Source: Anaerolineaceae bacterium (GTDB lineage: Bacteria > Chloroflexota > Anaerolineae > JAAYZQ01). Taken from it: a stretch of 20,607 nucleotides of DNA. The notes beneath the pieces are model-generated. The model ran no database searches and had not been told where the DNA came from. It worked only from the letters and a program-made list of their open reading frames with translations. How positions within the stretch are numbered: the first letter of the stretch is position 1; each line of letters begins with the position of its first letter. Positions 113 through 20,607 of the stretch are shown piece after piece. The translations under genes were made by a program, and so were the position numbers. The stretch covers positions 1-20,607 of the forward strand of contig JAAYZQ010000258.1 of assembly GCA_012514775.1 (NCBI GenBank), given 5' to 3'.

Positions 113-180
113 GGCGAACTGCTGGTGTCATGGACCGCGACCAGGGACGATCCAGTACATCGTCCTCCAGAGGAGAGCCC

Positions 181-6090: not shown

Positions 6091-6773
6091 TCGCTGCCCC
6101 CTTGCTCGCCTGTTCCCCGAAGGATGGGCACGTTGAGTAGATCTGTGAGCGAGCCGAGATAGTAGTCCGCTCTGGCGTCCGGATCATGGTTCACGGCGAT
6201 GGTCACCAGCCCAACCGCGCGGGCGCCGTCCAGCTCCTCGGCGTCGTGGCCCACGAAAGCCGCCTCGTCCGCCGGCAGCCCTGCCTGGCGCAGCGCGTCC
6301 AGGTAGATGGCAGGGTCAGGTTTATGGACACCCAGGACCGTCGAACAGGCCACGAAATCGATCCACGGGGCGATGCCGGCCTTTTCCAACCACTGCATCT
6401 TGCGTTCGAGGGAGTGCATCGTGTCGGTGACGATGCACAGGATCAGGCCGCGCTGCTTCAGCCCTGCCAGGGTTTCCTGGCAGCCGGGCATCGGACTGAC
6501 GCTGTCCGAGTGGCGGTCGATGGCGGCTACCAGCCTCTGGCGCTCCTCCGGGTCATCCAGGCCGTGCATCTGGAGCACCCGATCCCAGTATTCCTCGGGG
6601 CTGATGCGCCCCCGGCTTCCTTCCGACTTGAGCGCCTTCTGCCGCAGGCGATCCTCCCCCGTCAGCTCGGCCGGGAGACCTCTCTCCTGCAAACGGTCGG
6701 CCACGAACTGGCCCGTGGATTGCGGGCGTTGATACAGCACGCCCGCCGCGTCAAACAGGACTCCCTTAAGCAT
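6087..6773 (-). CDS. HAD-superfamily hydrolase (second of three)
   Basis: This 228-residue HAD-type hydrolase has motif I LFDAAGV (nucleophile Asp8), motif II CIVTDT, motif III in VHKPDPAIY, and motif IV AFVGHDAEELDGAR. The position two after the nucleophile is alanine. That is also seen in phosphonoacetaldehyde hydrolases (DxAGT), but I see no other reason to assign that activity. In motif IV, GHD replaces the usual GD. It is clearly more divergent than its two neighbours. The start at 6773 follows a GGGAGG ribosome site and overlaps the end of the upstream HAD gene by 8 bases. The stop overlaps the next start by 4 bases. The three HAD genes therefore form a translationally linked block in the minus-strand operon. 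Confidence 0.85.
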   Translation of the reverse strand: MLKGVLFDAAGVLYQRPQSTGQFVADRLQERGLPAELTGEDRLRQKALKSEGSRGRISPEEYWDRVLQMHGLDDPEERQRLVAAIDRHSDSVSPMPGCQETLAGLKQRGLILCIVTDTMHSLERKMQWLEKAGIAPWIDFVACSTVLGVHKPDPAIYLDALRQAGLPADEAAFVGHDAEELDGARAVGLVTIAVNHDPDARADYYLGSLTDLLNVPILRGTGEQGGSE

Positions 6774-7539
6774 GGGCAGAGGCCTCCCCCACGGGCGAGA
6801 CGAGCCCCAGGACGTCCATCAGGTCCTGGATGGCCGCGTCAGGCTCCACGTCCACGATGCCCTGGTCCGACCGGGCTGTGAGAAAGGACCGGATCTGGAT
6901 CGCCAGGCCATAGCCGGCGCGCCGGGCCCCGACGACGTCGCGCGAAAGCGTGTCGCCCACGTAGGCGCAGGCCGCAGCCGGCACCGCCATCAAGCGGACC
7001 GCCTCGTCAAAGATGCGTCGATTTGGCTTGCGCCAGCCGAAATCAGCGCTGGTCAGGACGTGCTCGAAGTAGTGGGCGATGCCGTACTCTGACAGGCAGG
7101 CCGGCACCAGCCTGCGGCTGAGGACATTGGAGATCATGCCCAGGCGAAAACCGCGGCTGCGCAACGCCTCGAGAAGGGCCGGCGCCTCGGAGCGCAGGCT
7201 CCGCGCCTGAAACCGGGTGGCGTGCAGATAGGTCAGCTCTTCGGCGACGGCCGCCAACCGATCCCTGGCCAGGCTGACATTGGACAAGATGTGCTCTGTC
7301 CACACCTGCTCGGGCGACAACTCCACCTCGCTTCCTTCTCGCCACGCCTGGTACGCCTCCATCCCGGAGACGACGGCGGCCTGTAACTCGGACACCCCCA
7401 GGCCGGGGTCCAGGTCGTGGCTGCGCAAGAACTCGAGCATCGCGCACGCACCCGCGTGGCGAGTGGTATCGTCATAGTAAACAGTCTCCAGCGTGCCGCC
7501 CATGTCAAAGATGACGGCGCGGATGCGATTGGTCGCCAT
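6766..7539 (-). CDS. HAD-superfamily hydrolase (first of three)
   Basis: This 257-residue HAD hydrolase begins MATNRIRAVIFDMGGT, with nucleophile Asp12 in a D-M-G-G-T motif I that lacks the second aspartate. Motif II is MISNV, motif III WRKPNRRIF, and motif IV AYVGDTLSRD. The cap lies between motifs I and II. The start at 7539 is preferred over an in-frame ATG at 7593 because the latter lies inside a long hairpin and has no ribosome site, whereas AAGGAAAG stands about 11 bases before 7539. It is probably a paralogue of the protein at 5299-6090. Position in an ABC-importer/RpiR operon suggests dephosphorylation of an imported or intermediate phosphate ester. The substrate is unknown. Confidence 0.85.
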   Translation of the reverse strand: MATNRIRAVIFDMGGTLETVYYDDTTRHAGACAMLEFLRSHDLDPGLGVSELQAAVVSGMEAYQAWREGSEVELSPEQVWTEHILSNVSLARDRLAAVAEELTYLHATRFQARSLRSEAPALLEALRSRGFRLGMISNVLSRRLVPACLSEYGIAHYFEHVLTSADFGWRKPNRRIFDEAVRLMAVPAAACAYVGDTLSRDVVGARRAGYGLAIQIRSFLTARSDQGIVDVEPDAAIQDLMDVLGLVSPVGEASAHA

Positions 7540-7572
7540 GGATGAATCGCTTTCCTTCCCGCGTGAGGTTGC

Positions 7573-7618
7573 CGGGCCTTTGGACACGAACACGGCGTGT
7601 TCGTGTCCAAAGAGCCCG
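7573..7618 (-). promoter_or_regulatory. long stem-loop between the binding-protein gene and the HAD block
   Basis: A perfect 16-bp inverted repeat (7578-7593 and 7597-7612; arm CTTTGGACACGAACAC) has a 3-base loop. It extends by five more G/C pairs (7573-7577 with 7614-7618) around one bulged A. There is no T-run directly after it on either strand, so it is not a standard intrinsic terminator. A stem-loop after a binding-protein gene often protects that part of the message from 3' decay or lowers downstream expression; that is my best reading. A palindromic protein site is the alternative. Confidence 0.7.
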
Positions 7619-7642: not shown

Positions 7643-8896
7643 CTAGGGAGCCAGTAGACTGATGGCCCAGAAGTCACGCACGGGGCTCAGGTTTTGATAG
7701 CCAAAGAGATCGTCGCTAGGCCAGAGCTTGATCTCGTCCCTGGCCGGCATGCCTTCGGCGAGGGGCATCCCCTCCACGCCAGAGTAGGCACCCATCTGGT
7801 TCCACGGCTTAAAGCCCTCTTCCGAGAGCGCGAACTTGATGAACAGCTTGGCGGCGTTGGGATGCGGAGCCTTGTTCGCAATCGCCAGGTAAGACGCCTT
7901 CAGAATGCCAACTGTCGGTTCGAGGCCGTAGCACGGCGCCATGGCCAGCTCTCCTTCCATGGTGCTCTCGTAGCTCGACAGACCGGTCCAGCCATACCCC
8001 GGCTCGACCGACGGATCCATGCCCAGGGTCGCAAAGGCCGCGTCGACCTCGTCGCCGCCGGGTTGGATGCCGGGCTCATTGCGGGCCAGCTTCTTGAGGA
8101 ACAGGTAGCCCGAGTTAGGGGTATCGTCGCCGTAGGCCTCATCCTCGGTCCACTCCCTGCCGAAATACGCCTGGTAGGCCGCGGCCATCTCGTCCGCGTG
8201 CTGGATGATGAGCGTGATCTTGGCCGTGGTGCTGCTGTCAGAGATGGGGTCCTCCATGTAGAACTTGCCCTTCAGCTCTGGCTCGGTAAAGGCCCACCAG
8301 TTGTTGACGGGGCAGCCGTCGGGGTAGATTTCCTGGTTGTAGCCGATGACGTCTACCGAGCGGCGAGCGATGGCATACGGCCGGTCGGGGGTCACTTCCG
8401 GCTCCACCACGTCCGGGGGAAGGTACCACCACAGCCATTGGTTGGGCATGAACTCGCCATACAGCAGGTGCCCATCGCTGTTGAACCAGATGTCGCCCAC
8501 GACGTTGCCGGCTTCCTGCTCCGCCGACATTTTCACGGCAATGTCGTCGGTGTCTCCGCCGGCCAGCTTGATGTCGGGGTACAGCTCGCTCCAGGGCTCG
8601 AGGAGCTTCTCGATCTTGCTGGAGTTGGAGTATACGACGACACTGCCTTCCTTCTTGGCAGCCTCTTCGATGGCCGCCCAGTCTTCCTCTTCCGGCGTCC
8701 ACGGGCCGAGGGCGTTCGCCTTGGCCCACTGTTCCGCCTCGGTAAGCTCTTCCTCCGGCTCGGGAGCCGCTTCCTCGACCGTCGCCTGGGCCGGCGGCGC
8801 CTCTGATTGCGGTACCGCCGTCGGTTCTGCTGCGCCGCAGCCTGCCAGCATCGCCACCAACAGGCTGACCATGATCCATTTAGCCAACGTCTTCAT
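7643..8896 (-). CDS. ABC transporter substrate-binding lipoprotein (FbpA/AfuA-like extracellular solute-binding protein)
   Basis: The 417-residue precursor starts with a lipoprotein signal peptide ending in the lipobox LAGC (Cys20). A low-complexity linker rich in Ala, Pro and Glu follows (about 21-60), then a periplasmic-binding-type fold with VVVYSNSS (first strand), GDIWFNSD, and GYNQEIYP. This is the style of the iron/thiamine/2-aminoethylphosphonate/hexose-phosphate group of binding proteins. Family members bind either ferric iron or anionic organic ligands such as hexose phosphates (AfuA). The RpiR and phosphatase context favours a phosphorylated or acidic organic ligand here, by inference. 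A strong AAGGAGGAGG ribosome site precedes the ATG. It is downstream of the ATPase and permease genes rather than first. A 46-base stem-loop follows it. Confidence 0.9.
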   Translation of the reverse strand: MKTLAKWIMVSLLVAMLAGCGAAEPTAVPQSEAPPAQATVEEAAPEPEEELTEAEQWAKANALGPWTPEEEDWAAIEEAAKKEGSVVVYSNSSKIEKLLEPWSELYPDIKLAGGDTDDIAVKMSAEQEAGNVVGDIWFNSDGHLLYGEFMPNQWLWWYLPPDVVEPEVTPDRPYAIARRSVDVIGYNQEIYPDGCPVNNWWAFTEPELKGKFYMEDPISDSSTTAKITLIIQHADEMAAAYQAYFGREWTEDEAYGDDTPNSGYLFLKKLARNEPGIQPGGDEVDAAFATLGMDPSVEPGYGWTGLSSYESTMEGELAMAPCYGLEPTVGILKASYLAIANKAPHPNAAKLFIKFALSEEGFKPWNQMGAYSGVEGMPLAEGMPARDEIKLWPSDDLFGYQNLSPVRDFWAISLLAP

Positions 8897-9021
8897 TGCC
8901 TCCTCCTTACTGTTTCACGAGCTTTTCCATCGACGCCCACGCCTTGTCCTTTGTACGGTCCAGCCTCCTTTCCCATCCTGAAGGGTACGCAGGGATGCAA
9001 GCAGACCAGCCCTTCCCTCCC
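8897..9021 (-). other. intergenic spacer, ATPase to binding-protein gene
   Basis: These 125 bases hold the ribosome site of the binding-protein gene. A short direct repeat TGCAAGCAG lies at the far end, with one copy here and one just inside the ATPase 3' end. I see no convincing promoter, terminator or small ORF. Confidence 0.4.
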
Positions 9022-10101
9022 TCAACCTGCAAGCAGGTCGCCACTCTCCTTGGAGTAGAGGTTGATCATGTCCGGGTTGAATTGCAGCCAGACCGTGTCG
9101 TCCATCGACACGCTGCTGCTGCCCGGTTCCTTGATGGTGATCTCTAACTTGCCTGCCTTGGCCACGACCGTGGTATCCGCTCCGGCAGGCAGAACGGAAT
9201 AGACCGTGCACTCCAGGGCGCCGGGCACCGGTTCGGAGGAAATGGTGATGTCTTCCGGGCGGATGGCGACGATGACGGGTCCTGAAGCCTGTGGCCGGTT
9301 TGCAGACACGGCAAAGGTGCCGATCTCCACCACGTTGTCCCGGGCAACCCCCTCCAACAGGTTGACCTTGGGGTTGCCGATGAAATCCGCCACGAACAGG
9401 TTGGCCGGGTAGCGGTAGATGGTGTCGGGGCTGCCCAGTTGCTGCAGGACCCCCTCTTTCATCACGGCGATGGCCGTGGACATGGTCAGGGCTTCCACCT
9501 GATCGTGGGTGACATAGATGGTGGTCGCTCCTGCTACGTGATGAAGGTGTTTTAGCTCCGAGCGCATATCCATGCGCAACCGAGCATCCAGGTTCGACAG
9601 CGGCTCGTCCATCAAAAAGACCTTGGGCCGGTAGGCGAGCATGCGCGCCAGGGCGATCCGCTGCTGCTGGCCGCCACTCATCTCGCGCGGATAGCGGTCC
9701 TCGTAGCCCTCCATCTGCACCTCGGCCAGCGAGGCCTTGACCCGCTGATCCATCTCTTCCTTGGGCAGCTTCTGGACCTCCAGGGCAAAGGTCATGTTCT
9801 TGTAGACGGTCATATGCGGCCACAGCGCATAGTTCTGAAATACAAGGCCGAGCTGCCTGTGGCCCGGGGAAAGCGAGATTCCCTGGGAGTGCGAGAACAC
9901 GAGCTTGTCCCCGATATAGATTTCGCCGCCGTCGGGATCTTCCAACCCGGCGACGCAGCGCAACAGGGTCGTCTTGCCGCAGCCCGAAGGGCCCAACAGG
10001 GTCAGGAATGAGCCGCCCTCGATTTCGAGACTGACGTCATCGACGGCGCGCACGTCGCCGAACCGCTTGGTGAGATTGTTGATGATGATTCTTGTTCCCA
10101 T
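9022..10101 (-). CDS. ABC transporter ATP-binding subunit (FbpC/PotA/UgpC type)
   Basis: This 359-residue ATPase powers the importer formed with the adjacent permease and binding protein. It shows Walker A GPSGCGKT (37-44), a Q-loop QNYALWPHMTV (about 89-99), signature MSGGQQQR (141-148), Walker B VFLMDEP with the catalytic Glu (161-167), D-loop SNLD, and H-loop THD (His199). Residues from about 240 form a C-terminal beta-rich TOBE-like regulatory region, typical of the CUT1/iron/polyamine importer group. The ATG at 10101 follows a GGGGAGA ribosome site, 12 bases after the permease stop. All catalytic residues are present, so it should be functional. Confidence 0.93.
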   Translation of the reverse strand: MGTRIIINNLTKRFGDVRAVDDVSLEIEGGSFLTLLGPSGCGKTTLLRCVAGLEDPDGGEIYIGDKLVFSHSQGISLSPGHRQLGLVFQNYALWPHMTVYKNMTFALEVQKLPKEEMDQRVKASLAEVQMEGYEDRYPREMSGGQQQRIALARMLAYRPKVFLMDEPLSNLDARLRMDMRSELKHLHHVAGATTIYVTHDQVEALTMSTAIAVMKEGVLQQLGSPDTIYRYPANLFVADFIGNPKVNLLEGVARDNVVEIGTFAVSANRPQASGPVIVAIRPEDITISSEPVPGALECTVYSVLPAGADTTVVAKAGKLEITIKEPGSSSVSMDDTVWLQFNPDMINLYSKESGDLLAG

Positions 10102-10113
10102 GGTCTCCCCCTC

Positions 10114-11949
10114 TTACATTCCCAGGCCCTTCTTGAGACTTCCACCCCGGAAGCGGCTGATGATGAAATTGCCGATGGCGACGATGGATATCAAGATCAG
10201 GATGACGATGTTCGCCATCTGCCCGTCTCCGTTCTCGATGTAGAACATGGTCTGGCTGGCCAGCACCTGAGTCTCGGGCGTGACCAGCAGGATGATCAGC
10301 GATAGCTCGCGCATCACGGTGATAAAGGTCAGCAGGAAACCCGAGACAAACCCCGCGCTGGTCAGGGGAAATATGATGGCCTTGAACCGCCGGAGGGCAC
10401 TGGCGCCGGCGATCTGGCCGGCCTCCTCCAGCTCGCGGCCGACCTGCATCATGGCCGAGACCCCCGACCGCGAGGAATATGGTATCTTGTCGGCCACCGA
10501 CACCACGACCAACAGCGTAAAAGTCCCGTATAATGCCGGGATCGGGCCCAGAGGCTTGACAAACATGGCGATATAGACCGCGCCAAAGGCGATGCCCGGT
10601 ATGACGTAGGGAATAAAGGCCAACTGCTCGACCAGCTTGCTCAACCGGGTGCCGCGCCCCTTGACCACCGCGTAGCCGATAAAGATGCCGAACAGCGCCG
10701 TAAAGAAGGCTGTCGACAGGGCGAGCCGGATCGAGTTCCAGGCCGTCCTCCAGATCTTTGGGTTGAGCAGGACGCCTGGCTCGCCGTGGTTATAGATCGT
10801 GCCGCGCGCGCCGATCCAGTGCTGCAAGGAGAGGTTGCTCAGGGCATAGTTTCCGTCCTGCAGCATCAGGGACGACCAGATGAGCAGGCCAAGGGGCACG
10901 ACGATCACGAGGATCTGGAAAATGATCACGGCGACGAGAAAGACCTGTTTCAGCCCGCCCAGCTTGCTCACCTGGGCCACAAAGCCCCTTCCGCCAATCG
11001 TTTCGTAGCTCTTGCGCGTGCCGACGACTTTTTGGTTGAGGTTGATGATGACCAGGGAGAACAGGATCAGGACGATGGCCAGCACAAAGGCATCGGCCCT
11101 GTCGCCTACGCCGATGCTGCCCCTGATCATGGTAGAGACCACATAGTACCGGATTGGGGTTCCCAGGATGTTTGGCCCGCCAAAGGTGCCGACGACCTTG
11201 GAAAAGGTCATGATGACGCCCGACAGGATGGCGGGCATGACGAGGGGGAAGGTGATCTTGCGCAGGATCCGCCGGCGGCTGGCGCCCGCCAGCTCGCCGG
11301 CCTCCTCCAGGTTAGAGTCGATGGACATCAGCGCCGCGGACACGAACAGGAAAAAGAAGGTATAGTAGTGCAGGGCGCTGCATATCATGATGGGTACCGG
11401 CCCGTAGGCCAACCAGTTTGGGGGGCTTTGCCCCGTCAGGAATTCGAACACGCCGGGCGTCCCCCCCGAGAGCCTGTTCTTGAAGAACACCAGCCAGGCC
11501 TGTGCCAGGGTCCAGGACGGCATGATGTAGGGGATGAGCGCCAGTTGGTTGACCAGCTTTCGGCCCGGCATGTCGGTGCGGATCACCAACCAGGCCAGCG
11601 ATCCGCCGATGATCAGCGCAAGGAAGGTGGCCCCCGTGGCAATGGTCAGCGAGTTGCGCAGGGGGGTGTACATGTAGATCTTGCCCAACTGGCCGGTGAG
11701 CATCCTGGCATAGTGGTACAATGTGAGGCCGCCCACCTCGGCGTCTGGCACGCTCATCAGGTCGCGGGGCTGCCAGGTGACTGTCGTCATGACCATGCGG
11801 TAGAGGGGGATGATGATCATGTAGAACATCAGGAACAACATGATCAATGACAGGAGGACGTGCGTCCGCGTCAGCCACCGAAAGAACCTTCGGGAGCCGG
11901 CGATCAGGCGCATAGAAACGGGCTGCGATGCGAGTGCGGGAGCTGCCAT
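10114..11949 (-). CDS. ABC transporter permease, two fused halves (FbpB/AfuB type)
   Basis: The 611-residue integral membrane protein contains two tandem permease halves, each with about six predicted helices and one coupling (EAA) loop. The first loop is EEAGELAGASRRRILRKITF (215-234) and the second is EEAGQIAGASALRRFKAIIF (508-527). The fusion of both permease units in one chain is characteristic of the ferric/AEP/hexose-phosphate (AfuB) branch and means a single gene supplies the whole channel. A strong AGGAGG lies 8 bases before the ATG. An in-frame 19-codon ORF with its own ribosome site lies immediately upstream and ends in TAG 15 bases before this ATG. It forms a unit with the ATPase and binding-protein genes downstream. 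Confidence 0.92.
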   Translation of the reverse strand: MAAPALASQPVSMRLIAGSRRFFRWLTRTHVLLSLIMLFLMFYMIIIPLYRMVMTTVTWQPRDLMSVPDAEVGGLTLYHYARMLTGQLGKIYMYTPLRNSLTIATGATFLALIIGGSLAWLVIRTDMPGRKLVNQLALIPYIMPSWTLAQAWLVFFKNRLSGGTPGVFEFLTGQSPPNWLAYGPVPIMICSALHYYTFFFLFVSAALMSIDSNLEEAGELAGASRRRILRKITFPLVMPAILSGVIMTFSKVVGTFGGPNILGTPIRYYVVSTMIRGSIGVGDRADAFVLAIVLILFSLVIINLNQKVVGTRKSYETIGGRGFVAQVSKLGGLKQVFLVAVIIFQILVIVVPLGLLIWSSLMLQDGNYALSNLSLQHWIGARGTIYNHGEPGVLLNPKIWRTAWNSIRLALSTAFFTALFGIFIGYAVVKGRGTRLSKLVEQLAFIPYVIPGIAFGAVYIAMFVKPLGPIPALYGTFTLLVVVSVADKIPYSSRSGVSAMMQVGRELEEAGQIAGASALRRFKAIIFPLTSAGFVSGFLLTFITVMRELSLIILLVTPETQVLASQTMFYIENGDGQMANIVILILISIVAIGNFIISRFRGGSLKKGLGM

Positions 11950-12058: not shown

Positions 12059-12928
12059 CTAGATGGTGGTGTCCAGGCGAGACTTGGCGCGCAATTGATC
12101 GAGCCGGGTGAGGGCGGCCAGGCTCTCTTCCGGCCGGGCCAACGCCACCGCGAGGATGAGCGCGTTCAGTATCGCCATTGGCACCGTCAACGAATGAAAC
12201 GTCGAAACAGGCCCTCTCCGGGCAGCAAGGATGACATCGGCCTTGTCTCGCAGGGTGATTCCCAATGTGTCGGTAAGGAGAATGGAGCGACAGCCGGTTG
12301 CGCGGGCGTGCTCCAGGACGGCGACCAGCTCGGGCCTCGCGTAGTGAAAGCCGGCGACGAGGACGGCGTCTCCCGGCTGGAGGAGCTGGAGCTTTTCCAG
12401 GAGATGGCGGCCCGATTCGGTCATGCCAACTGTGAGAATGCCAAGCCGCCTGAAGCGCAGCTCGGCCAGGCGGGCCAGGACGTCGGAAGGCCCGCTGGCG
12501 TAGGCAAAGATCCTCCGGCCGCCCAACAGGACGTCCACGGCGCGATCAAAGTCCGCCCGGTCGACGGTCTGCGACGCTTCGGTGAGGTACTGGACTTCCA
12601 TGGCCAACACGTTGGTCAATACGTGGCCCTCGCTCCGCGCCAGGTCGCCCAGGGTGTGTTGCAGGCGGCTGGCAGGGGTCGCCTCCGCGCGAAAGAGCCC
12701 TTGCAGGCAGCGGCGCAGATCGCGAAAGCCGGTGTAGCCAATGGCCTTGGCAAAGCGTACGAGGGTAGCTTCACTTACGTCCAGGCGTTGGGCCAGATCG
12801 GCCGCGGGCAAAAAGGCGGCTTCGTCGTAGCTGGCCAGGAGATAGGAGGCGATGCGCTGCTGACTCTTGGTCAGCTCGGGCAAATGGTTTTCCAACCTCT
12901 GCTGGAAGTCGCTCAGCTTCTGTTCCAT
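12059..12928 (-). CDS. MurR/RpiR-family transcriptional regulator
   Basis: This 289-residue regulator has an N-terminal RpiR-type helix-turn-helix domain (about 1-75, including LAQRLDVSEATLVRFAKAIG) and a C-terminal SIS sugar-isomerase-fold domain (about 115-255, with FAYASGPSDVLARLAELRF and FHYARPELVAVLEHARATG). The SIS domain in this family binds phosphorylated sugars or amino sugars. It is the first gene of the minus-strand operon, read from a perfect promoter at 12987-13015, with a GAGGAG ribosome site before the ATG. It is divergent from the E1/BMC operon, and the shared 212-bp control region carries several palindromes. It therefore most likely controls itself, the ABC/HAD genes and the BMC operon in response to a sugar phosphate (inference). 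Confidence 0.93.
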   Translation of the reverse strand: MEQKLSDFQQRLENHLPELTKSQQRIASYLLASYDEAAFLPAADLAQRLDVSEATLVRFAKAIGYTGFRDLRRCLQGLFRAEATPASRLQHTLGDLARSEGHVLTNVLAMEVQYLTEASQTVDRADFDRAVDVLLGGRRIFAYASGPSDVLARLAELRFRRLGILTVGMTESGRHLLEKLQLLQPGDAVLVAGFHYARPELVAVLEHARATGCRSILLTDTLGITLRDKADVILAARRGPVSTFHSLTVPMAILNALILAVALARPEESLAALTRLDQLRAKSRLDTTI

Positions 12929-13068: not shown

Positions 13069-13097
13069 TTGACAAATGTGAATTGCCGTGGTATAAT
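13069..13097 (+). promoter_or_regulatory. consensus sigma70 promoter for the E1/E2/BMC operon
   Basis: TTGACA (13069-13074) and TATAAT (13092-13097) are separated by exactly 17 bases. The start point should be near 13104, about 37 bases before the GTG start of the E1 gene. Together with the minus promoter at 12987-13015 it forms a back-to-back pair of perfect consensus promoters. Confidence 0.88.
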
Positions 13098-13108
13098 GTG
13101 CATGCACA
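13097..13108. promoter_or_regulatory. 12-bp perfect palindrome at the transcription start, candidate operator
   Basis: TGTGCATGCACA is a perfect palindrome. It begins on the last base of the -10 box and covers the expected start point, the classic place for a repressor site. It contains one of the three ATGCACA repeats. Confidence 0.6.
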
Positions 13109-13140
13109 GATGATACGACATTATGCACAAAGGTGAGCCC

Positions 13141-15264
13141 GTGAAAGAAAGAGTACCCAGTCCCTTGGGAGAGGTGCGCGAGATGCTTGAGGCCCTGGAT
13201 GTGGAACCCGCTACCAACCTGATCGATGGTCTCTCTCCGCAGTTTCTTGGCGAGATCTATTACAAGATGCTCCTCACCCGTGCCTTTGAGGAGGCCGCCT
13301 GGCAGCAATACGGCCTGGGCAAGGTCCACGGCACGATGCATCTGTGCGTCGGCCAGGAAGGGGTCGGCATTGGCGCCATCAGTGCGCTCCACCCCGACGA
13401 TTATATCGTGTCAACCCATCGCGGCCACGCCCACGCCATCGGCAAGGGGCAGGACGTGCGTGAGATGATGGCCGAGCTGCTGGGCAAGGAAACCGGCGTT
13501 TGCCGGGGCCGGGGCGGCTCGATGCACATGGCCGACCTGACCCTGGGCAGCCTGGGCGCCAACGGCGTCGTGGGCGGCGGCCTGCCGCTGTCGGTCGGCG
13601 CCGGCCTGGCGATCAAGCTGCGACGTGAGGACCGCGTGGTGCTTTGCTTCTTTGGCGACGGAGCCTCCAACGAAGGCAACTTTCACGAGAGCCTGAACAT
13701 GGCGTCCATCTGGAAGCTGCCGGTGGTCTTTGTGTGCGAGAACAACCAGTATGGCATGTCGATGCCGGTGCACAAGGGCATGAACGCCGCCAGCATCGCC
13801 GACCGCGCCGTGAGCTATGCCATCCCCGGCCACCAGGTGGACGGCATGGACGTCCTGGCCGTCTATGCCAGCGTCAAGGCGGCAGTGGCCTACGCCCGGG
13901 CAGGAAACGGCCCGGTGCTCATCGACGCCCTCACCTACCGCTACCTTGGCCACTCCAAGAGCGACAAGCAACTGTACCGCACCAAAGAAGAGATCGAGGA
14001 GTGGAAGCAAAAGGACGTCATCGAGCGCCTGGAACGCTACCTCATCGAGGTGGGAATCCTGACCGAGGAGCAGGCGCAAGAGCAGCGGGCGCGGGCCGAA
14101 GCGGCCATCGAGGAGGCCATTGCCTATGGCGACGCCGGCCCCGAGCCCTCGCCCCTGCACCTGACGGACGACGTGTACCTGGAAGAGCCCGACGTGCAGG
14201 CCGCGCCGGACCGGGTGGCGCCCGCCTGGGTGCGCGACACGTTCGGGCCCCGGACGCCCGTCAACCCGCCTCCGGGCACCCGGGAGCTGTCCTACTCCGA
14301 GGCACTGCGAGAGGCCATGGCCCAGGCCCTGGCGAGCGACTCGCGGGTGTTCCTGTTGGGCGAGGACATTGGCGTGTACGGCGGTGCCTTTGGCGTGACC
14401 AAGGACCTCGTCGAGGAGTTCGGGCCCGACCGGGTGCGCGACACGCCCATCTCGGAGAACGCCATCATCGGCGCGTCTGTGGGCTCGGCCGTCCTCGGCA
14501 TGCGGCCCGTGGCCGAGATGCAGTTTATGGACTTTATCACGTTGGGCATGGAGCAGACGGTCCTCCAGGGAGCCAAGATCCGCTACATGTTCGGCGGCAA
14601 GGCGTCGGTGCCCATGGTCGTGCGGCTGCCGGCGGGGTCGGGGACGGGCGCGGCAGCGCAGCACTGCCAGAGCCTGGAGTCGTGGTTCCTGAGCGTGCCG
14701 GGCCTCAAGATCGTGGCCCCGGCGACGCCCTACGATGCCAAAGGCATGTTGCTCGCTGCCATTGCCGACAACAACCCCGTGCTGTTCGTCGAGAACAAGC
14801 TACTCTACAAATCCCGTGGGCCGGTGCCCGTCGAGGCCTACGTCGTCCCCCTGGGGCGCGCGGCCGTGCGCCGCGAGGGCTCGGGCCCCACGGTCGTCGC
14901 CACCTCCATCATGGTGCCCCGCGCCCTGGAGGCGGCGCAGGTACTGGCCGAGGAGGGCATCGAGCTGGAGGTCATCGATCTGCGCTCCCTCAAGCCCTAC
15001 GACGCACCCACCATCGTCGAATCGGTGCAGAAGACAGGACGCCTACTCGTCGTGCACGAAGCGCCGCTCATCGGTGGCTTTGGCGGCGAGATCGTGGCCA
15101 TGGTGGCCCAGAGCCCGGCGTTTGCCTTCCTGGAAGCGCCCATCGTGCGGCTCGGCGGCGCGGATGTCCCCATCCCCTACAATCCCACCCTCGAAAAAGC
15201 CGCCGTCCCGCAGGTTCCGGACATTATCGCCGCTGCGCGCCAGCTTGCAAGGACCGAGATATAG
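13141..15264 (+). CDS. fused E1 alpha-beta subunit of a 2-oxoacid dehydrogenase (pyruvate/acetoin/branched-chain type)
   Basis: This thiamine-diphosphate enzyme decarboxylates a 2-oxoacid and passes the acyl group to the lipoyl arm of E2. Both subunits, normally separate, are in one 707-residue chain. The alpha half (about 25-345) contains the cofactor motif GDGASNEG...ENNQYGM and the active-site loop [10 protein letters not shown]. The beta half (about 375-705) contains [25 protein letters not shown] and [12 protein letters not shown] with the conserved His. I chose GTG 13141 because AAGGTGAG stands 5 bases upstream; the in-frame ATG at 13123 lies in the leader next to an operator repeat. 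It is the first gene of the plus operon, 57 bases before the E2 gene. The sequence alone does not separate pyruvate, acetoin or branched-chain substrates. No E3 is in the window. About 35 extra residues precede the usual alpha start. Confidence 0.92.
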
Positions 15265-15321
15265 AAGGAAGCCGCCCACCGCAATCCACGGATTGCCCGG
15301 GCGCAGACCTGAGGATCAGCC

Positions 15322-16707
15322 ATGCCAACAGCCGTGTTCATGCCCAAGTTCGAGATGACCCAGGAGACCGGAACCATCGTCGCCTGGGTCAAGGATGAAG
15401 GGGAGCACGTGGAGAAGGGCGAGCCGCTCCTGGAAGTCGAAACCGACAAGGCCACCCAGGAGGTCGAGTCGCCCGCGACGGGAACCCTGGCCGCCGTCAC
15501 CGGCGAGCCGGGGCAGGTGATCCCTATTGCCACACCCATTGCCTACATCCTGAAGCCCGGCGAGTCGTTGGACTCGATCCCCACCGACGGGCAGAGCGCC
15601 GCGGGATCGCCATCCCCCGGCGAGGGCAGCGAGGACGGTCCGGGCGCTCCCGCAGATAACGATGCCCCCGCCAGGGCCACGCCGGTGGCTGCGCGCCTGG
15701 CCGAGAGCCACGGCCTGAGCCTGGACTGCGTCGCCGGCAGCGGCCCCCGAGGCAGGATCACCCGGGAGGACGTGGAGGCGGCCCTCAACGTGGGGCCCGG
15801 GGCGCGCAACGGCAAGGTCCGCGCGGTGCCGGCCGCCCGCCGGCTCGCGAGCGAGATGGGCATCGACCTGCGCACCGTGCAGGGCACGGGGCCGGAGGGC
15901 CGGATCCAGTCGGCCGACGTGGTGGCCGCCGCCAGGGCGCTCCAGCGCGACCAGGAGCCCGGCCCGTCCCCGTACCCGGCCGCAGCGCCCGCGGCCACGC
16001 CCGCTCCAACGGGTGACATCCCCATTCGGCGGGTCGTGCCCCTGACCAACATGCGCCGGACCATCGCCGAGCGGATGACCGCCAGCGTGCGAGAGGCCCC
16101 ACAGTTTACCGTGACGGTGGACGTGGACATGAGGCGGGCCCTGGCGGTCGTCGAGGACCTGAAGGCCGGCGAGGGCGGGCCCAAGGTCACCCTGACGGCC
16201 CTCATGGTCAAGGTGTGCGCCTGGGCGCTGCGCCAGCATCCCGAGGTCAACGCCTCGTACAGGGACGATGCCGTCGTCGAGTGGGACGAGGTCAACGTGG
16301 GAGTCGCCACGGCCATCGACCAGGGGCTTATCGTCCCCGTGGTGCGCAGGGCGGACGAGCTGGGGCTGCGGAGCATCGCGGCGCAGGTGGCAGAGCTGAC
16401 CGGGCGGGCACGGGCCGGCACGTTCAAGCGGGAGGACCTACTGGGTGGGACGTTCACCGTCTCTAACCTGGGGATGTTTGGCATCGACCGGTTCACCGCC
16501 ATCCTGAATCCGCCCCAGGCGGCCATCCTGGCCGTGGGCCGGGTGGCCAAGCGGGCCGAGGTGGGGGAGGACGACCAGGTCGAGATCCGGCCCGTGGCGT
16601 CGCTGGCCCTGACCGCCGACCACCGGGTCCTGGATGGGGCGGCGGCGGCCCGATTTCTCGCGACAGTGCAGCGTGCACTGCAGCATCCTGGTTTGTTGCT
16701 CGAATAG
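15322..16707 (+). CDS. E2 dihydrolipoamide acyltransferase with two peripheral-subunit-binding domains
   Basis: E2 forms the core of the 2-oxoacid dehydrogenase complex and transfers the acyl group from lipoyl to CoA. The 461-residue protein shows one lipoyl domain (1-80) with the lipoylated Lys43 in ETDKAT, and two consecutive peripheral-subunit-binding domains (about 119-154 with GSGPRGRITREDV, and 168-205 with GTGPEGRIQSADV). A Pro/Ala linker and the catalytic acyltransferase domain follow (about 232-461), with HRVLDG (His434, Asp438) and the NLGMFGID loop. Two binding domains in tandem are unusual, as most E2 proteins have one. GAGGA precedes the ATG by 6 bases. The next gene starts 12 bases after its stop. 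It partners the fused E1 upstream. The E3 must be encoded elsewhere. Confidence 0.92.
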   Translation: MPTAVFMPKFEMTQETGTIVAWVKDEGEHVEKGEPLLEVETDKATQEVESPATGTLAAVTGEPGQVIPIATPIAYILKPGESLDSIPTDGQSAAGSPSPGEGSEDGPGAPADNDAPARATPVAARLAESHGLSLDCVAGSGPRGRITREDVEAALNVGPGARNGKVRAVPAARRLASEMGIDLRTVQGTGPEGRIQSADVVAAARALQRDQEPGPSPYPAAAPAATPAPTGDIPIRRVVPLTNMRRTIAERMTASVREAPQFTVTVDVDMRRALAVVEDLKAGEGGPKVTLTALMVKVCAWALRQHPEVNASYRDDAVVEWDEVNVGVATAIDQGLIVPVVRRADELGLRSIAAQVAELTGRARAGTFKREDLLGGTFTVSNLGMFGIDRFTAILNPPQAAILAVGRVAKRAEVGEDDQVEIRPVASLALTADHRVLDGAAAARFLATVQRALQHPGLLLE

Positions 16708-16719
16708 GACGAGGGTTCA

Positions 16720-17811
16720 ATGACTGTGCCAATGCTCCAGATCGCAATGGATTATATCGCTCTCCCGCCTGCCCTGGCGATGGCCGTCAAGGTGGCCTCC
16801 GAGGTCGACATCATCGAGATCGGCACGCCCCTGTGCAAGGCCGTAGGGCTGGATGCCATCCGCGCCATGCGCGAGCTGGTGGGCCCCGACAAGCTCATCC
16901 TGGCCGATTTCAAGAGCCCCGACGTCGGCGGGCTGGAAGCCAAGATGGCCTTTGACGCCGGCGCCGACATGATGACCGTCATTGGGGGCGCGGCCCTGGC
17001 CACCGTCGAATCGGCCCTGGAGGCCGCCAAGGCCGCGAACAAAGAGATGCTCATGGAGCTGACCGGCGTGCGCGATATTCTGGCCCGCGCCCGGGAGTGG
17101 CGACAGATCGGCGTCGAGCGGATGGTGTACCACCGTGGCTGGGACGAGCAGGCCTTTGCCCGGCAGTGGGTGGAAGAAGATCGAACGGTCATCCGCCAGC
17201 TCATCGACATGGGCTTCAGGATCACGGTAACGGGCGGCATCACCAGGCCACTGCTGCCGTTCTTTCAGCCACTGGCCGTGTCGGTGGTCATCTGCGGGCG
17301 CGGCATCCGCGAGACGCCGGACCCCAGGCAAGCGGCCCACGAGTTCCGCGCAGAGATGCAGCGGCTGTGGGGAGGAGGGGCCAACAACGGCGTTGTGGCC
17401 CCCTTCCCCGGAGGCAAGGTAGCAGGCAACACGGCGGCCGAGAACGCCGCCAAGGCCCTTCGCTGGGGCGTGAGCGAGATGGGGCTGTTGCTGACCGTGG
17501 ACGGTCGCGACTGCCCGGGCTGCGACTCGCCCCAGCGCTTTTGCTGGGGAAGCCGGGTGGAGGTGGTCGTGCCCGCCGGCGCCAACACCGGGGACGTGCT
17601 GGCCAGGATGGCTGCCAGCTACGGGCACACGCCGGCGGCGACGCGTGGCGGCGAAGCCAGCCTGGTGCTGGATCCCGCGCAACTGCCAAACTGCACGCCC
17701 AACGAGGTGCTGGAGCTGCTCCGGGCCCTGGGCAATGCGCTGCGCGGGCTCGGATGCGCCGTCGACGTGGCGGCCGGTCTCAGCGTCGCCGAGAACGTTT
17801 TGCGGGACTAG
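16720..17811 (+). CDS. 3-keto-L-gulonate-6-P decarboxylase/hexulose-6-P synthase-family protein with an extra C-terminal domain
   Basis: Residues 1-218 are a TIM barrel of the orotidine-monophosphate decarboxylase superfamily. VDIIEIGT (29-36), LADFKSPDVGG with Asp63/Lys65/Asp68, VYHRGWDEQA (136-145) and VTGGI (170-174) match the KGPDC/HPS group. These enzymes either decarboxylate 3-keto-L-gulonate-6-phosphate or join formaldehyde to ribulose-5-phosphate. The specificity loop reads H-R-G-W-D, between KGPDC (H-R-S-R-D) and HPS (H-T-G-Y-D), so I cannot choose. Residues 219-363 are a domain I do not recognise, with a C-P-G-C pair (265, 268) and Cys275. The gene lies 12 bases after E2 with a GAGGG ribosome site and precedes the shell genes by 123 bases, so it is probably in the same operon. 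Its product may be microcompartment cargo. Confidence 0.82.
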   Translation: MTVPMLQIAMDYIALPPALAMAVKVASEVDIIEIGTPLCKAVGLDAIRAMRELVGPDKLILADFKSPDVGGLEAKMAFDAGADMMTVIGGAALATVESALEAAKAANKEMLMELTGVRDILARAREWRQIGVERMVYHRGWDEQAFARQWVEEDRTVIRQLIDMGFRITVTGGITRPLLPFFQPLAVSVVICGRGIRETPDPRQAAHEFRAEMQRLWGGGANNGVVAPFPGGKVAGNTAAENAAKALRWGVSEMGLLLTVDGRDCPGCDSPQRFCWGSRVEVVVPAGANTGDVLARMAASYGHTPAATRGGEASLVLDPAQLPNCTPNEVLELLRALGNALRGLGCAVDVAAGLSVAENVLRD

Positions 17812-17934
17812 GGCGGACACAACTGCGCCCGCCGAGAGGGACATCGGACGTGAGGACAAGGGCTTGCAGCGGCAGCAAGGCAACGGCCTGAAGCGTGCGA
17901 GCCGGCGTCAGAAGTGCATCAAGCAGGAGGAAGA
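17812..17934 (+). other. 123-base spacer between enzyme genes and shell genes
   Basis: This is the longest gap inside the plus operon. It contains the GCAGGAGGA ribosome site of the first shell gene. I see no intrinsic terminator, no consensus promoter and no supported small ORF, so the shell genes are probably transcribed from the upstream promoter. Confidence 0.45.
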
Positions 17935-18261
17935 ATGGCACAAACACAGGTGCAAATGACGGCTCTGGGAATGGTCGAGACGCGCGGCCTGGTGGCTTCC
18001 ATCGAGGCAGCGGACGCCATGAGCAAGGTGGCGTACGTCCGGCTGGTGGCGCAAGAAGAGATCGGCGGTGGGTACATCACGATCTTTGTGCGCGGAGAAG
18101 TGGGCGCTGTGCAGGCCGCAGTGGACGCCGGGGTGGCGGCCGCCAAGCGCGCGGGCGAGCTGGTGGCGGCGCACGTCATTGCCCGGCCCCACGCCCTCAT
18201 GGAGAAACTGCTGCCGGCAGGCGAGACCAAGGTCGTGCCCCTCGGGGCGCAGACGGACTGA
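17935..18261 (+). CDS. BMC-H hexameric microcompartment shell protein
   Basis: This 108-residue single-BMC-domain protein of the PduA/EutM/CcmK type forms hexamers that tile the facets of a protein shell. It has the family opening [19 protein letters not shown], the pore loop EIGGGYIT, and [16 protein letters not shown]. The GGGY pore loop gives a small-residue pore, similar to metabolosome shells. I chose ATG 17935 because AGGAGG is 6 bases upstream; an in-frame ATG at 17914 lacks a site. It is a paralogue of the BMC-H at 19634-19933. It is the first gene of the shell block, 12 bases before the BMC-T gene. Confidence 0.96.
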
Positions 18262-18273
18262 AAGGGCTGAACC

Positions 18274-18888
18274 ATGGACCTCAGGACATTTGTGCTTATC
18301 GATTCCATGCAGCCCCAGTACGCCGCACTGACGGGCATCCTGCTCCAGGGCGACACGCCGGTGGAAGGCATGGCCGAAATTTTCATGGAGCTCGCGCCGG
18401 CCAGTGACGTATACGAGGTCCTGGACGCCGCCCTCAAGACGACGGACGTCCGCCCGGGGCTGCTCCGCGTGGAGCGCGAGTACGGCACCCTCGAGATTCA
18501 CGGCTTTCGACAAGAAGACGTCAGGGTGGCGGGCCGCGAAGCGCTGGCCAGGTTCGGGCTGACGGAGGCCGATCGCTGGAAACCCGAGGTCGTGTCGGTC
18601 AAGACCGTGACCGGGGTCGATGCCTGGGAGGCGCAGCTCGTCAACCAGACCAGCCGTGGAGGGCTGCTGCTGCGCGGGCAGACGCTGTGCGTCATCGAGG
18701 TCGTGCCGGCGGCGTACGTGATGCTGGCCGCCAACGAAGCGGAAAAGGCGGCAAACATCACCCTCGTGCACTACCAGCCGGCGGGCAAGTTCGGCCGGCT
18801 CTACATCTCGGGCACCGAGTCGGCTGTGCGCGTGGCGCGGGATGCGGCCGTGACCGCGGTGAGCAGCACGAGCGGGCAGGCGCGCTAG
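18274..18888 (+). CDS. BMC-T trimeric (tandem-domain) shell protein, CsoS1D-like
   Basis: This 204-residue protein consists of two permuted BMC domains in tandem. Domain 1 (about 1-100) begins MDLRTFVLIDSMQPQYAALT and domain 2 (about 105-200) includes QLVNQTSRGGLLLRGQT and NEAEKAANITLVHYQPAGKFGRL. It resembles the CsoS1D-like and Haliangium-type trimers that form pseudohexamers, some stacked as gated double layers with a large pore. That suits passage of bulky substrates or cofactors. The ribosome site is weak (GAAAGGG). Its presence with BMC-H and BMC-P gives a complete shell inventory. Confidence 0.93.
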   Translation: MDLRTFVLIDSMQPQYAALTGILLQGDTPVEGMAEIFMELAPASDVYEVLDAALKTTDVRPGLLRVEREYGTLEIHGFRQEDVRVAGREALARFGLTEADRWKPEVVSVKTVTGVDAWEAQLVNQTSRGGLLLRGQTLCVIEVVPAAYVMLAANEAEKAANITLVHYQPAGKFGRLYISGTESAVRVARDAAVTAVSSTSGQAR

Positions 18889-18940
18889 ATGCGAGGCGCT
18901 GGGGCGCTGACCATGGCGAGGGCAGGGGAGCGAGACCACA

Positions 18941-19273
18941 ATGAAAATCTTTTACAGCGCTGAGGACATCGAGACCCTGGCGAGCCAGGGGGTACGCGAG
19001 CTGATCGTCGACGAAAACACGGTGCTAACCTCTGTGGCCCGGGAGACGGCGGAGCAGCTCGGCGTGAATTTGGTGACGGCAGGGCAGGGTAAGGCGGGCG
19101 GATCCGCGTCGGAGGCGCCGGCAGTCTCACCCCAGAAGCCGCGCGGATGCCAGCATGGCCCCCTCGGCGGCGACCAGGGCCAGGCCACTGCGCCCGGCAG
19201 GGCGCCAGGCGGCAGCTCCCCGGTGGTCGACGAGTTGATCGGCGCCGTGAAACAGCTCGTGAAGCACGGCTAG
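18941..19273 (+). CDS. small BMC-associated protein: EutQ-N-like domain, linker, C-terminal encapsulation-type helix
   Basis: This 110-residue protein has no catalytic motif. Residues 1-46 resemble the N-terminal segment of EutQ and similar small BMC-locus proteins (I-F-Y-S-A-E-D-I start, then TVLTSVARETAEQLGVNLV). Residues 47-93 are a Gly/Pro/Ala/Gln linker. Residues 94-110 (SPVVDELIGAVKQLVKHG) form a short amphipathic helix at the very end after a flexible linker, which is how encapsulation peptides look. It lies between the BMC-T and BMC-P genes. I infer an adaptor or scaffold that docks cargo to the inner shell face. The ribosome site GGGGAG is about 11 bases upstream. Confidence 0.7.
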   Translation: MKIFYSAEDIETLASQGVRELIVDENTVLTSVARETAEQLGVNLVTAGQGKAGGSASEAPAVSPQKPRGCQHGPLGGDQGQATAPGRAPGGSSPVVDELIGAVKQLVKHG

Positions 19274-19285
19274 AGGAGGCCGAGG

Positions 19286-19576
19286 GTGATCATAGGCAAG
19301 GTTGTTGGAACTGCGGTTGCTTCGCTCAAGCTGGACGCACTGAGGGCCAGCAAGCTGCTGGTGGTGCAGCCGGCCGACGCAAAGGGCGAGGGTGTGGGGC
19401 CGGCCTTTCTGGCCGTGGACCTGGTCGGTGCGGGCGACGACGAGCTGGTCGTCGTCAGCCAGGGCAGCTCCGCCCGGATGGCCATCGGCAACGATCGCTC
19501 GCCGGCCGACGCGGCCATCGTCGGAATCCTGGACTCGATCCAGTATGGCGGCGAGCAGGTGTTCACAAAGCAGTAG
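19286..19576 (+). CDS. BMC-P pentameric vertex protein (EutN/CcmL family)
   Basis: This 96-residue protein of the EutN/CcmL family closes the twelve vertices of the shell as pentamers. It shows the typical MIIGKVVGTAVASLKLDAL start, LLVVQPAD, FLAVDLVGAGDDELVVVSQGSSAR and ADAAIVGILDSI. The start codon is GTG at 19286, with AGGAGG 6 bases upstream, directly after the preceding stop. The full length matches the family. Its presence means the shell can be closed, which marks this as a real microcompartment locus rather than a stray shell gene. Confidence 0.95.
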   Translation: MIIGKVVGTAVASLKLDALRASKLLVVQPADAKGEGVGPAFLAVDLVGAGDDELVVVSQGSSARMAIGNDRSPADAAIVGILDSIQYGGEQVFTKQ

Positions 19577-19633
19577 GCAAAGGCGAATTTTAGCCGAGCG
19601 GCGCCAGGGGCGCTGCCAGGAGGAGATGGAACC

Positions 19634-19933
19634 ATGACGGAAGAGACCGATCCCGGGCTGCGGGCCCTGGGCATGATCGAGACCAAGGGCCTGGTGCCGT
19701 GCATCGAGGCCGCGGATGCGATGGTCAAGTCCGCGAACGTGAGGCTGTTGCAGCGGCGGGCCATCGGCGGGGGCTACATGACCGTGATGGTGCGCGGAGA
19801 CGTGGGCGCGGTGCGGACCGCGCTGGAAGCGGGCAGCCAGGCGGCACGGCGGCTGGGCCAGGTTGTCTCGGTGCGCATTCTACCCAGCCCACACCTGGAT
19901 CTTGAGCCGATCCTGCCCGAGCCGGTGGAGTAA
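19634..19933 (+). CDS. second BMC-H hexameric shell protein
   Basis: This 99-residue single-BMC-domain protein has [19 protein letters not shown], pore loop AIGGGYMT and [16 protein letters not shown]. It is similar to the BMC-H at 17935-18261 along its length, with a shorter, acidic C-terminus. Two BMC-H paralogues usually form separate or mixed facets with different pore chemistry; here both pore loops read GGGY. A CAGGAGGAG ribosome site precedes the ATG. The next gene begins 3 bases after its stop. Confidence 0.96.
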
Positions 19934-19936
19934 CGC

Positions 19937-20607
19937 GTGAACGCGCCGCGTGTAACGCCGTCCAGCCTGCGGGCCAAAAAGAGCCGCGGGCAAAGGATTA
20001 CGATGCTGACCGCGTACGACTTTCCCATGGCCGCGTTCATCGAGCAGGCCGGGGTGGACATCGTGCTGGTCAGCGACGCCGTCGGCACGGTCGGCAACGG
20101 GCGGGGCGAGGCCGTGTCGGTTTCCGTTGACGAGATGATCTACCACACCCGCGCGGTGCGGAACGGGACCAGGCGCTGCATGGTCGTCACCACGATGCCC
20201 TTTGCTTCCTACAACACCACCGAGGACGCCCTTCGGACGGCCAGCCGGTTGATGAAAGAAGGCGGGGCCGACGCGGTGCACATGGAGGGCACCTGCCGCG
20301 AGGCACACCTCATCGGCGAGATCACGGCCGTGGGCATCCCCGTGATGGGTCACGTGGGAGTGACCAAGCAAAAGATCGTCAGCACGGGGCGGATCAAGCT
20401 GCCCGGGCTCAACGCCGAGAGCGCGGCCGAGATCGTCGGCGACGCCGTCGAAATGGCGCGCCAGGGGGCCTTTGCCCTCGTGCTCGAGTGCCTGCCCGCC
20501 GCCCTGGGCAAGATCATCACGCAGAGCCTGGAGATCCCGACCATCGGCATTGGGTCCGGCAGCGACTGCGATGGGCAGGCGCTGGTGACCCAGGACATGC
20601 TCGGCCT
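19937..20607 (+). CDS. PanB-like (ketopantoate hydroxymethyltransferase family) protein, truncated by the window edge
   Basis: Starting at GTG 19937 with GGTGGAG upstream, 223 residues are visible before the window ends. The TIM-barrel pattern of the PanB/phosphoenolpyruvate mutase superfamily is clear: TMLTAYDFPMA, VSDAVGT, VDEMIYHTRAV, MPFASY, GADAVHMEG, MGHVGVT, LVLECLP, IPTIGIGSG. Compared with E. coli PanB as I recall it, Asp45, Glu114, His136 and Glu181 are kept (Asp47, Glu117, His139, Glu184). Metal-ligand Asp84 is Thr86, and substrate residues Ser46 and Lys112 are Ala48 and His115. The fold and metal-dependent aldol chemistry are therefore likely, but ordinary ketopantoate synthesis is doubtful. 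It is linked by 3 bases to a shell gene, so it is probably BMC cargo or a partner enzyme. Confidence 0.85.
   Translation, partial: MNAPRVTPSSLRAKKSRGQRITMLTAYDFPMAAFIEQAGVDIVLVSDAVGTVGNGRGEAVSVSVDEMIYHTRAVRNGTRRCMVVTTMPFASYNTTEDALRTASRLMKEGGADAVHMEGTCREAHLIGEITAVGIPVMGHVGVTKQKIVSTGRIKLPGLNAESAAEIVGDAVEMARQGAFALVLECLPAALGKIITQSLEIPTIGIGSGSDCDGQALVTQDMLG

Follow-up and report, generated by a model that had tools for sequence, protein, structure and literature searches.

What does a bacterial microcompartment (BMC) confine when a complete shell is encoded and aldehyde dehydrogenase (AldDH) is not? In most catabolic BMCs the aldehyde formed by a signature enzyme is trapped and consumed by AldDH. 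The locus considered here lies in a 20,607-nucleotide stretch of an Anaerolineaceae bacterium (contig JAAYZQ010000258.1; the whole stretch is called the window below); it retains the complete shell, drops the AldDH core and pairs two re-engineered enzymes instead, namely a lyase homologous to 3-keto-L-gulonate-6-phosphate decarboxylase (KGPDC) and 3-hexulose-6-phosphate synthase (HPS), and a homologue of ketopantoate hydroxymethyltransferase, PanB. Besides the question of the confined compound, it raises those of an aminotransferase-derived domain that would replace the usual short encapsulation peptide, and of the chemistry left to PanB after loss of a metal ligand. Our answer, which we give an even chance of being right, is that the locus would encode an AldDH-free sugar-phosphate BMC with the remodelled lyase and PanB as its lumen enzymes.

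The first-pass annotation of the window had reported a complete shell set together with a fused E1, an E2, a KGPDC/HPS-family enzyme and a PanB homologue, and Pfam and NCBIfam searches recovered all of them in one plus-strand run (13123/13141-20607) with intergenic gaps of 3-102 bp. The gene order is fused E1, E2, lyase, BMC-H, BMC-T(dp), a small Eut-like protein that had been left unnamed, BMC-P, BMC-H and PanB; the shell set thus comprises two BMC-H, one BMC-T and one BMC-P. As had been claimed, a scan of the ten proteins encoded between 12059 and the end of the window showed neither AldDH nor phosphotransacylase, diol dehydratase, ethanolamine lyase (EutBC) or glycyl radical enzyme.

The absence of AldDH extends to whole genomes. 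In three relatives carrying the locus (G001, G029 and G136) there are three PF00936 matches each, all within this locus, which is their sole BMC. Two BMC-type AldDH queries, one at E<=1e-40 and one at 1e-15, matched nothing in these genomes; the second query was an AldDH encoded in another BMC locus of G338, which the search at E<=1e-40 had missed. The best TIGR02518 scores were 35.7 bits in G029 and 38.5 bits in G136, with no match in G001, as compared with 192-580 bits in eight genomes having another BMC locus (G003-G008, G200, G338); in the second BMC locus of G002 an AldDH fragment cut by the contig end reached 35 bits. The contrast is one of scores, for each of the 14 controls also gives a weak match to this model, and its own cut-off is not exceeded in any genome. 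PduL (PF06130) was found in none of the ten genomes with the locus, and in two of the 14 controls (Escherichia coli and Thermotoga maritima). The lack of both AldDH and PduL in the three sole-BMC genomes indicates that this is not a classical metabolosome. The suggestion of a new metabolosome stands only in part: a compartment without AldDH is no metabolosome in the usual sense.

The catalytic barrel of the lyase belongs fully to neither of its two families. According to the published signatures (PMC5980557 Table 1), KGPDC is marked by E112, T114, H136, R139, T169 and R192, and HPS by Asp112, Leu/Tyr139, Ala169 and Gly192 (residue numbers are those of E. coli UlaD). The window lyase keeps five of the six KGPDC residues, with R139 replaced by Trp, and scores 203.5 with the KGPDC model PRK13306 (cut-off 250); as for HPS, it has E112, W139, T169 and R192, and scores 167.9 with TIGR03128 (cut-off 200). 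Trp139 occurs in all 21 homologues of at least 55% identity, 17 of which have Gly and four Glu at position 138. Thr169 is kept in 11/11 BMC copies and in 118 of the 120 database relatives listed.

The barrel is followed by a 145-residue C-terminal domain with a CPGC...C motif and no Pfam match, which has the fold of the class V aminotransferase C-domain and also resembles it in sequence, weakly yet significantly. This fold is common to serine-glyoxylate, pyridoxamine-pyruvate and ureidoglycine aminotransferases; unlike these, the extension consists of the C-domain only, an Asp aligns with the arginine of their FRIGHLG motif, and CPGC...C is added. In all of 120 relatives among the matches listed, it is attached to the barrel or to a portion of it. 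Each of the 11 extended lyases that were assigned to a locus (the window and ten genomes) has genes for BMC-H and BMC-T downstream. Within the DNA examined, none of 22 unextended copies has them, though one of these (L005) is two genes away from an extended copy. The lyase of L007, which has neither the extension nor this shell, is nested among extended copies in the tree (support 99/83), which reads as a joint loss of extension and shell. The tree carried long-branch warnings (L035, L036 and UlaD) and did not unite the Trp139 homologues in one clade, and only its grouping of the extended copies is used here. We propose that the extension may act as a BMC targeting or scaffold domain.

The second enzyme of the pair passes the PanB family test (TIGR00222, 239.1 at a cut-off of 207.55) and, like all ten BMC-linked copies, retains D45, E114, H136 and E181 of ketopantoate hydroxymethyltransferase. 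The ten copies differ from it by A46, T84 and H112 in place of S46, D84 and K112, residues that we take to belong to the active site of E. coli PanB and to bind metal and substrate; the substitutions S46A, D84T and K112H bear out the earlier description of this PanB as divergent. The usual S46/D84/K112 was found in two PDB sequences and in 12/12 other PanBs compared (ten from G001-G006 and two from G008), that is, in 12 of 13 non-BMC matches, the partial third match of G003 (131 bits) being left out. Among the 120 nearest database proteins A46 is present in 119 (one gap), T84 in 119 (one Ser) and H112 in 120. Five of the eight genomes covered by this search, which did not include G029, G136, G200 and G338, contain both the BMC copy and a separate PanB (G001, G003-G006), and the BMC protein looks, from its sequence, like a paralogue with a new job. 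Its C-terminal helices were considered as an encapsulation peptide and rejected, as ordinary PanBs end with similar helices.

The lyase and PanB travel with the shell as a conserved core (extended lyase, BMC-H, BMC-T, small protein, BMC-P, BMC-H, PanB). The best genome-contig match to the window is a Chloroflexota metagenome-assembled genome (MAG), G001 (locus L001), whose lyase is 85% identical. Lyase relatives are encoded at fifteen genome loci, and within the class of G001 they were detected in 21 of 396 genomes (E<=1e-30); among 395 genomes of the phylum of G006, G006 alone matched (E<=1e-50). The extended form occurs in ten genomes (G001-G006, G029, G136, G200, G338), nine from Chloroflexota and one, G006, from an Olavius symbiont called a proteobacterium. 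The core is unbroken in the window and seven relatives (L001, L003, L004, L037, L038, L039, L040), is split over two contigs each in G005 and G006, and in G002 the contig stops after the small protein. In this last relative only, a GldA-type glycerol dehydrogenase gene (L002 6184-7491, above the NCBIfam cut-off) stands between lyase and first BMC-H. When an alcohol dehydrogenase for NAD recycling, as in classical metabolosomes, was looked for, a short-chain dehydrogenase/reductase (SDR) gene was seen after PanB in six loci (L001, L037, L038, L039, L040, L043), besides the GldA-type gene of L002. Genome G008 has an SPU-like (sugar phosphate-utilizing) BMC locus, L047, with DeoC-family aldolase, BMC-P, AldDH, BMC-H and BMC-T; its BMC-T shares 46% identity with that of the window, and its small protein 48%.

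The position of E1 and E2 is more variable. In the window, G001, G002 and G200 they are encoded ahead of the lyase. G003 and G004 have split genes for E1alpha, E1beta and E2, on the strand of PanB and about 10 kb downstream of it; in G005 E1 and E2 accompany a second, unextended lyase, divergent and two genes from the extended one; and in G029 and G338 they are found on short contigs, together with AraD and SorC relatives and with a PF01791 aldolase, respectively. Seven Chloroflexota loci (L008-L013, L015) contain a shell-less set of UlaE-type epimerase, unextended lyase with Trp139 and Ala169, E1alpha, E1beta and E2, mostly with genes read from sequence as those of a phosphotransferase system (PTS). 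These loci point to a link of the lyase with pyruvate dehydrogenase (PDH) that is independent of the BMC; we know of no description of such a shell-less pathway.

As the window ends within PanB, its right flank was read from the relatives, whose cluster content was established by BLAST/tblastn and by scans for protein families; the names of the PTS genes and of certain further neighbours come from sequence reading alone. In G001, PanB is followed by an SDR, a sugar-binding protein (L049 3162-4325), an AraG-type ATPase, two permeases, a UlaE-type 3-epimerase and an AraD-type 4-epimerase, and further on by a URO-D-like protein, two FGGY kinases, a SorC-type regulator, an SMP-30 lactonase and an E3-like flavoprotein; most of this set is also present in G003, G004 and G007. 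The epimerases of G003 exceed the cut-offs of their models (3-epimerase, TIGR00542, 296 over 272; 4-epimerase, PRK06557, 280 over 251), and those of G001 are 55% and 68% identical to them, respectively. A BMC AldDH query matched nothing downstream of the locus in the relatives, where the other signature enzymes were not profile-searched. The check on AldDH and phosphotransacylase genes beyond the window thus revealed sugar import and pentulose-phosphate interconversion instead, and leaves the claim of an unusual locus unrefuted. Of the 2-oxoacid dehydrogenase complex, E1 alpha and beta and the lipoyl E2 are encoded in the window, where no E3 was seen, and an E3-like flavoprotein is encoded in the G001 cluster.

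Judged by its gene content, the G001 cluster is a Ula/Yia-like route to D-xylulose 5-phosphate. In E. coli a KGPDC-family enzyme, both epimerases and an FGGY kinase are clustered likewise in Yia/Sgb and Ula (LyxK, SgbH/UlaD, SgbU/UlaE, SgbE/UlaF); the differences are that the E. coli lyase has Arg139 and that the importer here is an AraG-type ABC system. To our knowledge, the E. coli systems include no shell, no PanB paralogue and no aminotransferase-related domain. In E. coli the KGPDC product, L-xylulose 5-phosphate, is epimerised twice to D-xylulose 5-phosphate, according to the part of PMC6958661 relied on here, and the targets predicted there for PlaR (YiaJ) include aceEF-lpd as well as the yia operon, which unexpectedly parallels the presence of E1-E2-E3 genes here. 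Within the sugar clusters a URO-D-superfamily protein is encoded in two loci (L049 10016-11047 and L050 6258-7301). This superfamily includes methyltransferases, and the protein is a possible further one-carbon (C1) link.

The shell set with its gated BMC-T and the epimerases downstream suggest that a sugar-acid or hexulose phosphate goes in and a pentulose 5-phosphate comes out; for some of the BMC-T(dp) family, sugar phosphates are the substrates suggested by the BMC catalogue, in the portion used here (PMC8217296). On this model the lyase, held by its aminotransferase-derived C-terminal domain, and the PanB homologue would reside inside the shell, as their co-occurrence with it suggests. 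A phosphorylated sugar acid or hexulose would enter through the gated CcmP-type BMC-T, and the lyase would remove a C1 unit to leave a pentulose 5-phosphate, which would exit and be converted by the two epimerases to D-xylulose 5-phosphate. The PanB homologue would handle the C1 unit or a 2-oxoacid partner, and E1-E2-E3 would oxidise the 2-oxoacid, probably pyruvate, to acyl-CoA, probably in the cytosol outside the shell. The C1 unit is more likely CO2, as Thr169 and E112 suggest, with formaldehyde being possible in view of the Arg139 loss, the PanB partner and a 6-phospho-3-hexuloisomerase near two of the loci.

A number of observations weigh against this scheme. Trp139 matches neither the Arg of KGPDC nor the Leu/Tyr of HPS in the table of PMC5980557, and the reaction may accordingly be neither of the two. 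The changes of D84 and K112 could mean that catalysis was lost in the BMC PanB, and the role assigned to it is a guess. Co-occurrence is the single observation pointing to targeting by the extension, whose model is of moderate quality (mean pLDDT 75.7), and the Cys motif falls within a low-confidence stretch of the full-length lyase model. E1 and E2 are linked to the shell less tightly than lyase and PanB: in G006 no pair closer than 48-50% identity was seen, and that one is about 37 kb from the locus, and in G136 the best match (46%) is on a different contig, away from the shell. According to the same portion of PMC8217296, the association with sugar phosphates does not hold for every BMC-T(dp) clade, and nothing found points to the identity of the imported sugar. 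The genomes compared are mostly MAGs of unknown completeness, which limits the absences reported above.

The most substantial competing mechanism, which we nevertheless hold to be rather unlikely, makes formaldehyde the confined compound: the PanB homologue would release or bind it together with a 2-oxoacid, the lyase would work as HPS or in reverse with a pentulose 5-phosphate, the shell would retain formaldehyde as acetaldehyde or propionaldehyde is retained in known metabolosomes, and E1-E2-E3 would oxidise the 2-oxoacid. HPS uses formaldehyde, and a toxic aldehyde would account for the shell. Arg139 is replaced in all 21 close homologues, most of which have the HPS-like Gly138, and a 6-phospho-3-hexuloisomerase above the NCBIfam cut-off is encoded 2.5 kb from the lyase of G004 and about 15 kb from PanB of G006; moreover, E. 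coli PanB has served as catalyst for the addition of 2-oxoacids to formaldehyde, according to part of PMC10127515. Against this, Thr169, kept in all BMC copies and nearly all listed database relatives, is the sole residue unique to KGPDC in the PMC5980557 table, E112 and R192 are KGPDC-like too, and the BMC PanB has substitutions at the presumed metal-binding residues. The hexuloisomerase passes the cut-off in only five of 12 genomes, with none in G001, G136, G200, G338, G005, G007 and G008, and five of 14 control genomes likewise exceed the cut-off of this model. The fuller proposal of a natural formaldehyde-confining BMC, in which a PanB-derived aldolase and an HPS-like lyase would exchange formaldehyde within the shell, the partners being a 2-oxoacid and a pentulose 5-phosphate, and the aminotransferase-derived domain would serve as targeting module, seems to us unlikely; were formaldehyde indeed confined, the locus would offer a natural model for C1 engineering. 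Treating E1 and E2 as lumen cargo, that is, a PDH organelle, appears very improbable: they open the operon in four loci (window, G001, G002, G200) and lie near the cluster in several others, but the seven shell-less loci combine them with the lyase, and in other relatives they stand apart from the shell genes.

Among known types, the sugar-phosphate BMC proposed here comes close to the SPU BMCs, especially SPU6 of Anaerolineae in the same phylum, which have BMC-T(dp), BMC-P, BMC-H, a TIGR02536-like protein and a sugar-phosphate setting. SPU types share a DeoC-type aldolase and RpiB and use AldDH, according to the excerpted catalogue (PMC8217296), whereas this locus has neither AldDH nor RpiB, and the combination of DeoC-type PF01791 aldolase, RpiB and AldDH was not found at it. 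A variant of SPU drawing AldDH, DeoC and RpiB from satellite loci would be in keeping with the similar BMC-T and small protein of G008, with an LsrF/DhnA-kind PF01791 aldolase gene that lies close to E1/E2 in L067 and has a divergent orientation in L003 and L004 (assigned by Pfam in all three, its kind by profile score in L003), and with the presence of other BMC loci in seven of ten genomes, most of them with AldDH, and of RpiB (PF02502) in all ten. We find it improbable, as neither a further BMC gene nor a BMC-type AldDH was seen in G001, G029 and G136, and in all ten genomes RpiB sits on contigs different from that of this locus, some of these other contigs being short; three RpiB genes are on contigs of separate BMC loci (G338, G005, G002). 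A different objection concerns the name and is compatible with a sugar-phosphate BMC: BMCs of unknown function (BUF) likewise have a full shell without metabolosome core enzymes, and the locus may be BUF2 of the 2021 catalogue, leaving 'new type' unproven. That it is an AldDH-less BUF type already catalogued is a real possibility, although one we put somewhat below even. The catalogue, in the part cited, defines BUF by the lack of AldDH, limits BUF2 to one phylum and places 'BUF23' (taken as BUF2 and BUF3) in a BMC-T(dp) clade with SPU6 (PMC8217296), and the 46% identity of the G008 BMC-T agrees with such a placement; its main text, on the other hand, makes no mention of ketopantoate, orotidine or HPS, and the present type is found in the genome of a proteobacterial symbiont as well. 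The BUF described in 2014 holds amidohydrolases and deaminases, as stated in part of PMC4207490, unlike this locus. The open-access literature, searched by title and start of abstract, yielded no paper on such a locus, on the remodelled enzymes or on the aminotransferase-related domain.

Table 1. Coordinates of the features of the BMC locus in the window and of the E3-like gene in the G001 cluster
Feature	Position	Strand	Basis or remark
RpiR/SIS-domain regulator gene, divergent	12059..12928	-	Pfam HTH_6 + SIS
Sigma-70 promoter TTGACA-17-TATAAT, 12/12 consensus	13069-13097	+	ahead of E1
12-bp palindrome TGTGCATGCACA	13097-13108	+	adjoins promoter; whole element 13069..13108
E1 alpha-beta fusion, 2-oxoacid dehydrogenase, pyruvate-type	13123..15264	+	Pfam, NCBIfam, PDB relatives
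E2 dihydrolipoyl acyltransferase	15322..16707	+	Pfam 2-oxoacid_dh, E3_binding, lipoyl; NCBIfam
KGPDC/HPS-family TIM barrel, residues 1-215	16720..17364	+	Pfam OMPdecase/HUMPS
C-terminal extension of KGPDC/HPS-family protein	17365..17811	+	fold and profile matches to class V aminotransferase C-domain
BMC-H shell hexamer 1	17914..18261	+	PF00936
BMC-T, CcmP/CsoS1D kind (double-stacked, gated)	18274..18888	+	NCBIfam NF053796; PDB HO-5816, CcmP
Small BMC-associated protein, TIGR02536-like start	18941..19273	+	TIGR02536, weak match, 19.1 bits
BMC-P vertex pentamer	19286..19576	+	PF03319 (EutN_CcmL)
BMC-H shell hexamer 2	19634..19933	+	PF00936
PanB-like aldolase paralogue, cut by window end	19937..20607	+	PF02548 (Pantoate_transf)
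E3-like flavoprotein, G001 cluster	L049 17275-18675		

The features of the locus are collected in Table 1. Translation of E1 starts at 13123 (ATG) or at 13141 (GTG), the latter codon, which the first-pass annotation had taken as the start, being preceded by AAAGGTGAG; the protein shows the Pfam domains E1_dh (309.7 bits), Transket_pyr and Transketolase_C, scores 356.8 with PRK09212 (cut-off 321) and falls slightly short with TIGR03182 (374.7 at a cut-off of 393.85). The BMC-T scores 208 bits with NF053796, below the cut-off of 340, and the small protein matched neither Pfam nor PDB. A second promoter of 12/12 consensus (13015-12987) is directed divergently, ahead of the RpiR/SIS gene; two such perfect promoters were observed, as compared with 0.4 expected in shuffled sequence. 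The RpiR/SIS protein is the probable regulator of the BMC operon, and the palindrome next to the E1 promoter is a possible operator.

Between the RpiR gene and a group of HAD genes an ABC importer is encoded on the minus strand (7643-11949), with a binding protein, a UgpC/PhnT2-like ATPase and a double-length PhnU2-like permease, all scoring below NCBIfam cut-offs; it might supply the BMC with a substrate that is phosphorylated or anionic. The HAD group consists of three tandem open reading frames (ORFs) on the minus strand (5299-7593; identified by sequence reading) with overlaps of a few bases, beside the ABC transporter operon. Further upstream, a 2,3-bisphosphoglycerate-independent phosphoglycerate mutase is encoded as one 535-aa ORF (3702-5309, minus strand) with swapped halves: residues 17-306 align to 220-508 of 1ejj, and residues 316-523 to 4-211, and the enzyme looks circularly permuted. 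At the left end (130-2507, plus strand), an APC-type permease with UspA-like C-terminal domains, recognised by sequence reading, is apparently frameshifted, which could be a sequencing error: ORF 130-1272 encodes its N-terminal part and ORF 441-2507 the remainder, with the switch near 1000-1100.

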